Source: a virus. From it: a DNA stretch of 42,442 bases. Both the position numbers and the translations under genes were made by a program. The number at the start of each line of letters is the position of its first letter. Within the stretch, counting starts at the first letter, position 1. Below the pieces are notes generated by a model that saw nothing but the letters and a program-made list of their open reading frames with translations, was not told the DNA's origin and ran no database searches. Where the stretch lies: IMG/VR virus record IMGVR_UViG_3300009609_000033, positions 1-42,442 of that record, one strand, 5' to 3'. Below are positions 709 through 39,242 of the stretch, one piece after another.

Positions 709-977
709 ACTGGCACCTCATTAATAGATTTTTCAGCTTGAGGAGTTATTTTAATAATTTCAATAACTCCCAATAGAACTATTTCGTCAACTGGGCAGGG
801 GAATTTGCATTCATTAGGTTTGCTAGTGCCTTCCATTGCTAATTGAGAAAGAGAAGCGGCACCCGCCCAATACCAAATTCGCCTAGCGTGTAGTAGTTCT
901 ATTTCATTACCGACCCTAGATTTGATAACACCGACAAAAACACCGGCATTTTGTGTTCTAATTAAGTGCATTTCCAT
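696..977 (-). CDS. DUF6948-like phage protein (93 aa)
   Basis: The sequence starts MEMHLIRTQNAGVFVG and contains RRIWYWAGAASLSQLA and a C-terminal VPVWKA. From memory this resembles the small phage family DUF6948, several members of which carry Gly-rich [S/Y/D]-G tails. No function is established for the family. Here the protein ends with TAG and the Gly-rich part is a separate overlapping frame. GAAGGG upstream of the ATG is a plausible ribosome site. The gene heads the repeat-gene string and lies downstream of a long non-coding leader. The family call rests on pattern recognition only. Confidence 0.6.
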   Translation of the reverse strand: MEMHLIRTQNAGVFVGVIKSRVGNEIELLHARRIWYWAGAASLSQLAMEGTSKPNECKFPCPVDEIVLLGVIEIIKITPQAEKSINEVPVWKA

Positions 978-1071
978 AGTTTTTTACCCTTCTTTGTGAA
1001 ATTATTTATTTAATTACCTAATTTAACAGAAAATTAAGTAATTAAATAAAGGTACGTACTTGATAAGTTAA

Positions 1072-1099
1072 TAAATAAATCTAAAATTAGTAGTGTCAA
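1072..1099 (-). promoter_or_regulatory. Tentative leftward promoter for the DUF6948-like and repeat genes
   Basis: The minus strand carries a perfect TTGACA (1094-1099). The -10 region is poor: TATTTA after 16 bp. The -35 lies inside the loop of the 11-bp inverted repeat 1075-1085/1112-1122, which could be an operator. The perfect -35 and the correct position upstream of the gene are the only support. Confidence 0.3.
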
Positions 1100-1145
1100 G
1101 TCAATGCCAACTTTAGATTTATGTTTGGTCAATCCGAACCGAAAC

Positions 1146-1194
1146 TGTAGCAATACCGGACAAACTTACTGTAAGTGTGTCCGGGAGTGCTACA
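1146..1194. other. Three-step perfect hairpin
   Basis: Nested stems are TGTAGCA/TGCTACA (1146-1152/1188-1194), CCGGACA/TGTCCGG (1156-1162/1178-1184) and ACTTA/TAAGT (1164-1168/1172-1176), with tiny symmetric internal loops and a 3-nt apical loop. Nineteen paired positions without a mismatch are far beyond chance for one spot. AACTGTA (1143-1149) can alternatively pair with TACAGTT (1212-1218), so a two-state fold is possible. Confidence 0.65.
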
Positions 1195-1557
1195 AAGTTG
1201 TGTCAGATCGGTACAGTTAGTGGTCAAGGTCTTATAATAACAGTATTGGCAATAGTAAAAAGGGGTAAATACTACTCTAACTTCTAATACCTATACTTTC
1301 TTCTTATCTATACTTATAAAAGGAAAAAATAGTAGAAGAAAAGCTATAAGCAACAATAGGGAAATCCCGGTTAGGGTTAGTGGTTTTGGTTCGCCCCCGA
1401 CGGGGCGAATCTGAGAACCGCACCAGACGGCCTAGGGAACGACACAGTTTACTTGAGACAAGTTTTTATAGCCAAATCGTCTGTTTACCCCAAAACTGGC
1501 TTTGTTACAAAACATGGGCCTCTAAATCGTTTTACGTATCGTTTTTTTGTTGGTAGG

Positions 1558-1617
1558 AAAAATTTCACTTCATTTGGGACGAAGGCCCTTTTCATTTTGA
1601 ATTGAAGTGAAATTTTT
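1558..1617. terminator. Bidirectional terminator-like hairpin
   Basis: A perfect 14-bp stem, AAAAATTTCACTTC / GAAGTGAAATTTTT (1558-1571/1604-1617), has A-runs and T-runs at its outer ends. It acts as an intrinsic terminator candidate in both directions. On the plus strand it is followed by GTTTTGTTT. On the minus strand it spans the stop codon (1592) of the 105-residue gene. The loop holds a smaller GGG/CCC pairing. Confidence 0.55.
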
Positions 1618-1909
1618 GTTTTGTTTGGTATTTAGTACCGTTTTTTATGAGCCATTCATCGGCCCATACAGAATTACTGAAGAACCTACGATACGTTTTT
1701 TCTTGAATGAAATTCCCTTCTCTATGTGGTGTTAATTTTTTTCTTATGTTGTCTGGCATTGCTGTTGGAATCCACCACTCCGGTATATTCTCTTTCAGAC
1801 TGTTACTGTGTACTCCAGTGTATTCCTTCATAAATTTAATGTATGAAGGAACTAACATAGCAGACATTTTTTGTCTGCTATGTCTAGGAAAATTGTTTGG
1901 TCTTTTCAT
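1592..1909 (-). CDS. Small basic protein coupled to a membrane peptide (105 aa)
   Basis: The protein was not recognised. The chosen start is the ATG at 1909 (MKRPNNFPRHSRQK...), which overlaps the TGA of the 26-residue peptide as ATGA. A longer frame would need a TTG start without a good ribosome site. The protein is rich in Lys and Arg, with several Trp near the middle (IPEWWIP) and end (SVWADEWLIK). Two perfect hairpins fall inside the coding DNA: 1823-1832/1842-1851 (10 bp) and 1855-1866/1872-1883 (12 bp, T5 loop). They may affect message stability. A terminator-like stem covers the stop. Confidence 0.45.
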   Translation of the reverse strand: MKRPNNFPRHSRQKMSAMLVPSYIKFMKEYTGVHSNSLKENIPEWWIPTAMPDNIRKKLTPHREGNFIQEKTYRRFFSNSVWADEWLIKNGTKYQTKQKFHFNSK

Positions 1910-1986
1910 CCCCAAAGGCTCCATACTAGGAATAAAATTATAAAGAATAAAATTACTCCTAGGTATTCCAATAATTGTTTTATCAT
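1906..1986 (-). CDS. 26-residue single-span membrane peptide
   Basis: The ATG at 1986 is preceded by AAAAAAGGG about 9 nt away. The peptide has a short polar head (MIKQLLEYLG) and a continuous hydrophobic stretch (VILFFIILFLVW) ending SLWG. Such tiny one-span peptides occur as phage lysis or accessory factors and as type I toxin peptides; either is only a guess. Its TGA overlaps the ATG of the next gene, so the two are translated together. The ribosome site lies inside the left arm of the 19-bp inverted repeat (1995-2013). Confidence 0.5.
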   Translation of the reverse strand: MIKQLLEYLGVILFFIILFLVWSLWG

Positions 1987-1994
1987 TGCACAAC

Positions 1995-2608
1995 CCTTTT
2001 TTAGATTCCCTCAAGTGTCCACACTGTCACATTACGCCACCTTTACGCTTGTGGCATTTTCTTCCTTGAGGGATTTGCGTAGTTGCTTTGGAACGAAAGT
2101 ATCCCGTCCCTCTATCTTGCGGAATTCTTTTGTGATGGTCTTGCGGTTGGGTAGCAATCCCAATAACGCATAGGCACCACGAATGAAGCTATACTTGTCG
2201 ATGCCCAATGCTATCCATCCTGGTTCACTAGGGATATTTAGTCCCTTGCCAGTACCATTGTCAATCATTAGAGCGAATTCGGCAATCATCTTGACAATTG
2301 CTCCGTCAGAGACGGTTGCAAGATAATTGACGAATCCTTCAAATGTCAAGTCGATTTTGTCCGACTTGTCGTCAAGGTATGCTTGTGCAAAACCTTGAAA
2401 CAATTTGAATGCACCAATTGCACTTTTATCATTCGAGACTCGGTTTACCAAGTCATAGAATGTTTCAGTGAATGCTTGTTGTGCATCTTGACCGTTGATT
2501 CCGATGTTTTCGGATAGGTCATATTCCTGGAATGCCAGTTTGATTTCAGTTTGTACCATGCTCATTTAGATTCTCCTTACCAAAATTGGTGAGGGAATCT
2601 AAAAAAGG
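1995..2608. repeat. Perfect 19-bp inverted repeat flanking one gene
   Basis: The sequence TGAGGGAATCTAAAAAAGG lies on the plus strand at 2590-2608 and on the minus strand at 1995-2013. The two arms bracket exactly the 177-residue gene (2032-2565). The match stops sharply on both sides. The left copy also supplies the ribosome site of the 26-residue peptide. It could be a duplicated leader, paired regulator sites, ends of a small mobile unit, or the borders of an invertible segment. No recombinase is seen in the window. Confidence 0.8.
2032..2565 (-). CDS. Unrecognised phage protein (177 aa)
   Basis: The start ATG at 2565 has a strong AAGGAG 7 nt upstream. The protein is soluble and mostly helical-looking (MSMVQTEIKLAFQEYDLSEN...). 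It has an acidic N-terminal half, a Gly/Pro turn region (NGTGKGLNIPSEPGW) and a basic C-terminal tail (KQLRKSLKEENATSVKVA). No motif was recognised. A leftward promoter candidate lies about 100 bp upstream inside the folded region, and a perfect 19-bp inverted repeat surrounds the gene. Codon use looks less A/T-biased than in the rightward operon. Confidence 0.75.
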   Translation of the reverse strand: MSMVQTEIKLAFQEYDLSENIGINGQDAQQAFTETFYDLVNRVSNDKSAIGAFKLFQGFAQAYLDDKSDKIDLTFEGFVNYLATVSDGAIVKMIAEFALMIDNGTGKGLNIPSEPGWIALGIDKYSFIRGAYALLGLLPNRKTITKEFRKIEGRDTFVPKQLRKSLKEENATSVKVA

Positions 2609-2618
2609 ATTATGTTTG

Positions 2619-3190
2619 TCCTAGCCTATGATCGGAGACTGTCATTCGATTTATACTGGCGGACAGTATAATTTTTTAATACAGCTAGTACAATCTAGGA
2701 ACTGTCAGAACCTTGACAGTCTTCGATCATAGGCTATGACTAGGAATTATAGCTAGACTTTCTATTTCGCACCATTACCATACACTCAATAGAGTGTATT
2801 GTAGTGCTAAGTCTTATCATCTAGCTTAGGGGTACACCCTCAGATTAACAGCATAAACCTACTGTTAATCCTATAATCGCGTCACTAATGTAGTGACTAG
2901 GCTACTGAATACACTCAGCTTTACGCACGCGATTACTGGCTATTCGTATGCTATCGTTCTGTGCGGGACGGGTAGCCAACCCACCATTCCATTTCTGGAA
3001 ACCGCGATAGCAATTGATAGAATAGCAAAGCCTATACCAGTAATAATTGCTCTAATTTTTGTTCTAATTTTGGTAAAAACTGGGTAATATTGCCCAATGT
3101 AGGGACTATTACCCAATTTTGGTATGACATTTTGTCTGGTACGACAATGTCGTAGCGACAAATTGCTTGGGTAATATTCCCCAATGTGGG
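2619..3190. ncRNA. Large multi-helix structured RNA candidate (about 570 nt)
   Basis: There is no gene here, but there is a dense series of perfect stems: 2622-2644/2714-2736 (23 bp, one G.U if read on plus); 2652-2658/2664-2670; 2755-2760/2809-2814; 2769-2772/2804-2807; 2780-2787/2792-2799; 2843-2851/2862-2870; 2874-2882/2927-2935; 2881-2887/2891-2897; nested 2932-2939/3037-3044, 2940-2944/3021-3025 and 2949-2956/3005-3012; 3081-3088/3108-3115; 3131-3136/3157-3162 with 3140-3145/3149-3154. Size and complexity recall the giant phage RNAs GOLLD and ROOL; homology is untested. The only outer wobble favours the plus strand, but the 3080/3116 mismatch favours minus. A cluster of protein-binding palindromes is the alternative. 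Confidence 0.55.
2665..2693 (-). promoter_or_regulatory. Leftward sigma70-type promoter candidate
   Basis: On the minus strand TTGTAC (2688-2693) and TATACT (2665-2670) are separated by exactly 17 bp. A transcript would start near 2658 and reach the AAGGAG of the 177-residue gene after about 80 nt. The promoter lies inside the loop of the 23-bp inverted repeat 2622-2644/2714-2736, so a regulator binding both arms, or folding of an antisense RNA, could control it. Confidence 0.45.
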
Positions 3191-3237
3191 TTAAAGCGGT
3201 ACGTTATACAATTTCACTAAGATTATTCCATTTTTAC

Positions 3238-3266
3238 TTGACATTGAGCCTCCGATGATGTATACT
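3238..3266 (+). promoter_or_regulatory. Strong rightward promoter of the structural operon
   Basis: TTGACA (3238-3243) and TATACT (3261-3266) are separated by 17 bp, nearly the sigma70 consensus. Transcription would start near 3273 and run through a roughly 380-nt leader into the rightward gene block at 3.7-26.3 kb. No other comparably good rightward promoter was noticed in the window. Confidence 0.75.
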
Positions 3267-3272
3267 TTAATA

Positions 3273-3651
3273 GAGGTTTGTTGTGTCAGTATTGGGACAG
3301 TTAAGGATTGCAGTATTAGTTGAATTGAATTTTAATTTTAATCTTTGTTGTTTGAAGCATAGCTTCAATAAACCTTTTAGAGTAATACTCTAATTTAGGT
3401 CATGGGGGAGATATTGCTTCAATTTTTTGCGCATTTTTTCAAGTCTGACTTGATTCAATTTTTAATTGACTTTTTAACGTGAAACTGTAAGCGACCTAGG
3501 ACGGGTGAAGCACGGCTTTCAGTTTAGAAGTAAGGCTGTAGTGTTGCAGTGAGACTTCCAAAATGTGATTGTGACTTGAGACTCCCAGATTTTGGCGGGG
3601 AAGAACCCCAACACAATAAGGTCAATAGAAATTTTGAATAAAAATATTTTT
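3273..3651 (+). promoter_or_regulatory. Structured 5' leader of the rightward operon
   Basis: No gene is seen. The leader has small perfect hairpins: TTGAAGC-ATA-GCTTCAA (3352-3368), the palindrome 3377-3393 (TTAGAGTA-A-TACTCTAA), the palindrome 3439-3453 (TCAAGTC-T-GACTTGA), CCAAAAT/ATTTTGG (3558-3564/3589-3595) and GGGG-AAGAA-CCCC (3597-3609). The palindromes near the start could also be operators. Confidence 0.5.
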
Positions 3652-3731
3652 ATGAAAATAAGGTCAATAGAAATTTTGAATAAAAATATTTTTATGAAAA
3701 TAAGGCCAATAGAAATTTTGAATAAAAAATT
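3616..3731 (+). repeat. 42-bp tandem repeat, two full copies and a third diverging copy
   Basis: The unit beginning ATAAGGTCAATAGAAATTTT starts at 3616, 3658 and 3700, an exact 42-bp spacing. The third copy has GGCC for GGTC and is shortened so that its tail becomes the start region of the next gene: ATGAATAAAAATATTTTTA resembles the repeat's own TTGAATAAAAATATTTTTA. Each unit carries AATAAGG, a possible ribosome site. Being 14 codons long, the repeat keeps one frame open. Confidence 0.85.
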
Positions 3732-3735
3732 ATGA
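3652..3735 (+). CDS. 27-residue leader peptide made of the 42-bp repeat
   Basis: From the ATG at 3652 the repeat reads MKIRSIEILNKNIF, then MKIRPIEILNKKL, then TGA, which overlaps the ATG of the secreted-protein gene (ATGA). The downstream ATG has no ribosome site of its own nearby, so coupled translation through this leader is plausible. The leader itself also lacks an obvious ribosome site, so confidence is modest. Confidence 0.3.
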   Translation: MKIRSIEILNKNIFMKIRPIEILNKKL

Positions 3736-4214
3736 ATAAAAATATTTTTAATTTAGGTTTAAGTTTATTTTTATTACAAATAAATTGTTTCTTTCCAGTT
3801 AATGGTGCTAGAATGGGAGGTTGGGAAGGAGACCCAAAGGTAGAGATTGAAAAAAAAGGAGCCGATTGGTCTTTTTCTTCTGGTACTAATTTTGGTGGTG
3901 AAGCAGAAGTAGTTGGTAATGCTGATGGTTCTTATGCTTTTAAAGTTAAAAAATTTAGTAGTAACGCTGGTGATGTAACTAAAGAACAAGGTGATCGTGC
4001 ATTGAATGCTGGTTTAGTAGAAATGCATAAAATTCAAAGTGAAAGAGAAACTCACTTTTGGAATTTTGCAGAAAGGGTTGCTGAAGTAGCTCTTCCAATT
4101 TTATTGGCCCCAAAACCAATCCCTCCAGGCAATAATAATAATAACAATGGTGGTGAACCTGCATGGTTAAAGTGGATTATGTTGAATCTACCTGGTCCAC
4201 CACCACCGCAATAG
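3732..4214 (+). CDS. Predicted exported protein (160 aa)
   Basis: The N-terminus is a signal peptide: basic MNKN, hydrophobic LGLSLFLLQINCFFPV, then a likely cleavage near NGA at residue 26. The mature part is Gly-rich and mixed (a GGWEGD region), with a helical middle (residues 95-120). It has an Asn tract (six N in a row) and a proline-rich end (GPPPPQ). No enzyme motif was recognised. It is the first gene of the rightward operon, followed by other small envelope-type genes, so a role in the host envelope or lysis is possible. The start codon lies within diverged 42-bp repeat sequence. Confidence 0.65.
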   Translation: MNKNIFNLGLSLFLLQINCFFPVNGARMGGWEGDPKVEIEKKGADWSFSSGTNFGGEAEVVGNADGSYAFKVKKFSSNAGDVTKEQGDRALNAGLVEMHKIQSERETHFWNFAERVAEVALPILLAPKPIPPGNNNNNNGGEPAWLKWIMLNLPGPPPPQ

Positions 4215-39157: not shown

Positions 39158-39242
39158 TAGTAGTAGTCGGACTTGAACCGACACTCCCTAAAAGGGAAAC
39201 GGATTTTAAATCCGTTGCGTCTGCCAATTCCGCCATACTACT
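39158..39242 (-). tRNA. tRNA-Leu (anticodon UAA)
   Basis: A complete cloverleaf can be drawn on the minus strand. The acceptor is AGTAGTA/TACTACT. The D arm contains GGCGGAATTGGCAGACGC. The anticodon stem is ACGGA/TCCGT with loop TTTAAAA (anticodon TAA). A long class II variable arm (TCCC...GGGA) is typical of Leu, and the T arm is GTCGG-TTCAAGT-CCGAC. No CCA is encoded. Its 5' end overlaps the last bases of the methyltransferase stop codon. It decodes UUA/UUG-type leucine codons; TTA is abundant in this AT-rich genome. Confidence 0.95.

Follow-up and report, generated by a model that had tools for sequence, protein, structure and literature searches.

A gene-free hairpin array beside a stem-bracketed gene, probably part of a module common to six podovirus-like phages

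Organization of the locus

The window, by which we mean the whole 42,442-base viral contig analyzed here (G000), belongs to a podovirus-like phage whose genes run in a leftward and a rightward block (Table 1). The region of interest occupies the gap between these blocks, near the minimum of the cumulative GC skew. The original prediction placed a giant structured RNA in a gene-free stretch at 2619-3190. No convincing gene is indeed found there: the stretch holds no ATG-initiated open reading frame of at least 40 amino acids, and its only GTG or TTG frames (2893-3087 on the plus strand, 2940-3161 and 3032-3184 on the minus strand) are unsupported. The region splits into a hairpin array of about 430 bases (2618-3043, H1-H6) and a group of palindromic repeats (3081-3190), with the promoter at 3238 just outside.

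Table 1. Features of the gene-free region and of the genome around it
Feature	Position	Strand	Remarks
Rightward structural block	from ~3.7 kb	+	terminase 6080, portal 8901, capsid 11564
Leftward block (replication and early genes)		-	PolA-type polymerase 34038, primase 26559, ParB-like 40888
tRNA Leu	39158-39242		sole tRNA of the window; ~5.8 kb from the gene-free region if the genome is circular
Panhandle 3' arm	1989-2013	-	after the stop codon; pairs with 2590-2614
Panhandle gene	2032-2565	-	177 aa, no known family; AAGGAG precedes the start
Panhandle 5' arm	2590-2614	-	before the Shine-Dalgarno sequence
H1, long hairpin domain	2618-2740	-	arms 2618-2644/2714-2740 around 69 nt with smaller stems
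H2, hairpin with nested stem	2750-2827	-	inner arms 2773-2787/2792-2806
H4, simple hairpin	2842-2873	-	GATTAACAG/CTGTTAATC
H5, nested hairpin domain	2874-2935	-	closing stem TAATCGCG/CGCGATTA
H6, nested hairpin domain	2936-3043	-	holds 2949-2956/3005-3012
Palindromes, three copies	3081-3103, 3100-3122, 3168-3190		close to ideal TTGGGTAATATTACCCAA
Sigma-70-type promoter, TTGACA-17-TATACT	3238-3266	+	strong; place conserved in relatives

Two complementary arms enclose the gene that adjoins the array, an arrangement that we call a panhandle. Twenty-three of the 25 arm positions form Watson-Crick pairs, and the other two are G-U pairs on the messenger strand. A search with the single protein sequence returned no relatives, and its predicted structure is poor (mean pLDDT 44.8).

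The palindromes are an element separate from the hairpin array, and we regard them as probable operators or other protein-binding sites. Counterparts of the promoter lie at the same place in the related phages L006, L009, and L016, and other palindromes occur near the counterpart promoter: TTATCGGAC in L009, L016, and L102, GGGCATATATGCCC in L006, and a AAAGTATNACTTT-like form in L013. Palindromes that change from phage to phage but keep their position fit operators specific to individual regulators, and we therefore treat these repeats as a DNA-level element. Upstream of the array, the minus strand yielded no convincing sigma-70 promoter, which counts against the array being part of a leftward transcribed module.

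Further repeats lie in the neighborhood. Positions 1-700 form an array rich in hexanucleotides (GGTTCC/GGTTAC/GGTGAC, read on the minus strand); the contig ends in it, and at least three small leftward ORFs there open with a common ATGGAAAACATAGATTCCGG-like start. A second gene-free, strongly structured stretch is located in the leftward accessory block at 970-1590 (z -7.2 on the plus and -5.0 on the minus strand). A perfect 12-bp hairpin (1855-1883) and a second hairpin (1938-1975) lie where the leftward ORF that terminates at 1592 is likely to have its 5' end. Immediately 5' of the first rightward gene, a 42-bp direct repeat is present in two perfect copies and one partial copy (3615-3740).

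Folding of the gene-free region

RNA folding of 2610-3190 gave z-scores of -8.63 on the plus and -10.65 on the minus strand, and none of 100 shuffled sequences was as stable on either strand. A 572-nt segment starting at 2619 scored -10.9 on the minus strand, compared with a mean of -1.25 (sd 1.35, minimum -4.18) for 34 segments elsewhere in the genome. The longest inverted repeat of the region, which forms the arms of H1, spans 27 nt with 93% complementarity.

Both stems offered as examples of nesting in the original prediction are exact, namely 2932-2939/3037-3044 (attactgg/ccagtaat) and 2949-2956/3005-3012 (tgctatcg/cgatagca). The nested example partly competes with the H5 closing stem; as the bases ATTA are common to both, not every listed stem can coexist. 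The density of pairing had also been taken as a sign of selection. Stem length and strength do exceed chance, with 107-114 bp of total pairing versus 72-74 in shuffled sequence and a longest stem of 23 bp on the plus strand versus a shuffle maximum of 17, whereas the number of uninterrupted stems of at least 6 bp is ordinary (12-13 versus a shuffle mean of about 10).

Unusual structure extends over the whole of 0.9-3.75 kb, coding parts included (mean z of -2.3 on the plus and -2.9 on the minus strand in 150-nt segments); the two main gene blocks average only -0.4 to -0.75 by the same measure. Strong local structure is also seen in a coding ORF and in the ParB region, and a mutational origin would likewise give such structure. 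Since the gene-free stretch is strongly paired and relatives have similar stretches close to the same position, we consider some selected structure likely. A single giant, ornate RNA finds no support: the minimum-energy fold, computed without pseudoknots, strings together hairpins that are largely independent of one another, and the separate palindromic repeats follow.

Is the region a member of a known RNA family? No covariance-model match was obtained to GOLLD (RF02032), at the gathering score or at E values up to 10, nor to ROOL (RF03087), the two families to which the region had been likened; the ROOL control is uninformative because 14 control genomes likewise gave no match. Rfam models applied to the full window, together with a permissive search of 950-3760, yielded only the tRNA or chance-level matches. 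As predicted, the only tRNA lies elsewhere, and the region lacks the tRNA-island neighborhood that is typical of GOLLD, though not strictly defining. Covariance models built from the single sequence (H4-H5 and H6) matched the window only. With no Rfam match, a distant tRNA, and models that find the window only, we do not assign the region to GOLLD or ROOL. No match came from IMG/VR when it was scanned for the exact H1 stem pattern, nor from a DNA similarity search of 2300-3500 against 50,697 phage records. In the relatives the array sequence is not conserved and has no alignable homolog, which also counts against a module that includes it.

If 2618-3190 gave rise to a separate, large, structured non-coding RNA that acts as a folded molecule, a new class comparable to GOLLD and ROOL in size and setting, this would account for the length (about 430-570 nt), extreme z-scores, nested domains, phage setting, and structured counterparts in relatives. 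We nevertheless think such an RNA unlikely, given hairpins that are modular and show no evident global fold, operator-like repeats that fill part of the interval, a tRNA that is not nearby, and neither an Rfam match nor an alignable homolog, relatives included.

Panhandles in six phages

Relatives of the phage were identified by searches with terminase, portal, and capsid; they share its gene order and 44-65% amino-acid identity in those proteins. The region is covered in full in five of them: L006, L009, L013, L016, and L100/L102. L100 and L102 are identical where they overlap, and the pairs L015/L016 and L100/L102 are essentially identical. A terminase alignment search of GTDB genomes found two distant MAG contigs only.

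Using an inverted-repeat score of at least 18 and a gap above 90, we detected 12 panhandles, three each in L006, L016, and L102 and one each in L009, L013, and the window. Shuffled genomes of the window and of four of the five relatives gave no panhandle at the same score. All repeats that reach this score with a gap above 90 in the six phages lie among the leftward genes flanking the divergent promoter. The arms measure 23-36 nt, the two halves of one stem are up to 576 nt apart, and the arm sequence is particular to each gene. Ten panhandles each hold a single ORF, the upstream arm lying 11-33 nt ahead of its start codon and the downstream arm 7-22 nt past its stop; the remaining two (L006 6967-7272 and L016 5072-5219) contain no likely ORF. 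Because arm sequence differs gene by gene, we ruled out that the arms are terminal repeats of a mobile element. The panhandle proteins have no noteworthy relatives in Pfam, PHROG, NCBIfam, or PDB, and their mutual homology is no more than suggested, by position and weak similarity. Among more distant terminase relatives there are a few other long inverted repeats, and three named podoviruses with weak terminase similarity show no comparable repeats.

Could the repeats be a mutational by-product, made repeatedly by template switching near a replication origin and serving no selected function? The strong structure of coding sequence in the same stretch, the unconserved array sequences, and the tandem repeats that also accumulate here fit such an origin. 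It would leave unexplained why 10 of 12 long repeats bracket exactly one ORF at short and similar spacing and why the pattern recurs in six divergent phages; moreover, unselected arms should not favor G-U pairs on the messenger strand, barring strand-biased mutation. We judge this explanation improbable.

Other elements were noted in these and more distant genomes. In a distant phage group, a homologous long inverted repeat sits directly upstream of the terminase gene (L026 9714-9892, L041 9735-9907, and L052 9762-9913); its wobble pairs favor the plus strand, and it may be a conserved RNA element. A motif resembling GGGACTCCGAnGGTGCTGnnGTATATATACC, possibly a late promoter or packaging site, lies just before small-terminase-side genes (L006 9330-9370, L010 400-435, L012 1205-1245, L016 7555-7595, and L102 3180-3215); L013 has a divergent form, none was seen in the window, and an exact scan for the motif matched the L010 contig only. 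Different minisatellite repeats occupy the same intergenic place in L006 (9160-9320), L010 (160-390), L012 (880-960 and 1130-1190), and L014 (1-150).

RNA or DNA?

Do the stems act in RNA or in DNA? At arm positions that are not Watson-Crick, G-U pairs on the messenger strand outnumber those on the other strand by 20 to 6 (two-sided p = 0.009), an excess to which strand-biased mutation could add. Duplex energies favor the messenger strand by a mean of 3.6 kcal/mol, a borderline difference (p = 0.053), and the mean pairing probability of the arms in sense RNA is 0.89-1.00. Together these results argue that the panhandles probably act as RNA.

The array gives a different picture. Folded alone (2615-3050), its strands perform equally well (z -9.0 plus, -8.5 minus), which counts against the module, and the H1 stem pairs slightly better on the plus strand, counter to a minus-strand role.

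Hairpin-rich non-coding stretches adjoin a panhandle gene in L006, L009, L013, and L102 and precede a leftward gene in L012. Minus-strand versus plus-strand z-scores are -5.65/-4.25 in L006, -7.4/-5.0 in L009 (where the stretch lies on the other side of the panhandle gene), -7.15/-4.74 in L013, and -5.35/-1.75 in L102. In L012 the strands are about equal (-7.27/-7.21), and part of the stretch may encode a 42-aa peptide. What these five relatives have in common is such a stretch nearby, without sequence conservation. L016 is an exception that counts against the module, its stretch adjoining the panhandle being unstructured (z about 0).

A control region that acts as DNA at the divergent point, by binding regulators, initiating replication, or forming cruciforms, would make RNA folding incidental. 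The location between divergent gene blocks near the skew minimum, the adjoining strong promoter, the palindromic repeats, the ParB-like protein of the phage, and the roughly equal folding of the array strands are all compatible with this. Nested stems of this length, with loops tens of bases long, would be unusual operators, however, and DNA-level control does not readily account for gene-bracketing arms hundreds of bases apart with a messenger-strand wobble bias or for better minus-strand folding in four of the five relatives' stretches. We therefore hold this possibility to be rather unlikely.

A proposed early expression module

Most informative is the stem-bracketed gene module common to six phages, of which the array is probably the non-coding component. 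Hairpins, panhandles, tight gene bracketing, recurrence in six phages, and the messenger-strand wobble bias of the panhandles are its observed foundation. The best explanation, which we favor tentatively, is that 2618-3043 is a hairpin-rich, non-coding part of an early transcript that runs leftward, within this module. We infer transcription, the acting strand of the array, cleavage, protection, and the nuclease.

How might such a module work? A leftward (minus-strand) early transcript would carry the array just upstream of the panhandle gene. Because the gene order of G014 (L100) suggests such an arrangement, we envisage a transcript that runs from the array through one to three panhandled genes to an ordinary operon. 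Long double-stranded stems would flank the early cistrons beside the divergent control region and set them apart from one another. In the window, pairing of 1989-2013 with 2590-2614 would close the ORF and its Shine-Dalgarno sequence into a loop, and the neighboring hairpins would be closed units without genes. The stems would probably be points of cleavage and protection for a nuclease that acts on double strands, host RNase III for example; processing there would release short, stable monocistronic messages whose ends the stems set. The palindromes at 3081-3190 would be separate, operator-like DNA sites. That the whole is a new RNA-based expression module, in which stem-closed early cistrons alternate with structured non-coding RNA along the leftward transcript and are excised or protected via double-stranded RNA, the array being a functional RNA part, is a bolder claim that we find doubtful.

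These observations suggest that stems of double-stranded RNA, and not a single giant RNA of the GOLLD/ROOL kind, organize early gene expression. Should the stems work at the RNA level, individual early genes of this phage group would be bracketed by complementary arms specific to each gene, which would offer a simple test of whether nucleases that recognize double strands determine the boundaries and stability of messages. The work provides concrete loci for RNA end mapping and illustrates that a hairpin-rich gap resembling a giant RNA can be interpreted from neighboring features. A limited search of the open literature found no description of such a stem-bracketed module.

Comparison with known systems

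GOLLD and ROOL are phage or prophage RNAs, often near tRNA islands, with elaborate folds backed by covariation (PMC12286853). The ROOL fold is complex and contains multiple pseudoknots. The array resembles them in being phage-encoded, several hundred nucleotides long, and highly structured; it differs in having no model match and no neighboring tRNA, in its modular hairpins, and in a sequence not conserved among relatives. In hok-type mRNAs, long-range 5'-3' pairing joins the ends of a short message. The Shine-Dalgarno sequences of the present phages are instead inside the loop, not the stem, and evidence of an antisense RNA or toxin is absent.

In bacteriophage T7, the early polycistronic RNA is cut by RNase III at double-stranded sites to give mono- and dicistronic messages (PMC4858673). 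The present phages share with T7 the presence of long double-stranded stems (arms of 23-36 nt) at cistron borders, directly beside leftward ORFs, and in both cases early phage RNA would contain double-stranded processing sites, cleavage in the present phages being a prediction. The T7 RNase III sites are local hairpins between genes, whereas here the stem halves flank a single cistron, one before and one after it. In this respect the closer parallel is to bacterial rRNA precursors, in which complementary arms bracket the product and RNase III cuts the arms; the loops differ in holding small protein genes or, in two panhandles, short non-coding sequence. To our knowledge, gene-specific bracketing arms are known for ribosomal RNA precursors and not for phage cistrons. 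Long, near-perfect arms are, in principle, suitable substrates for RNase III-type enzymes.
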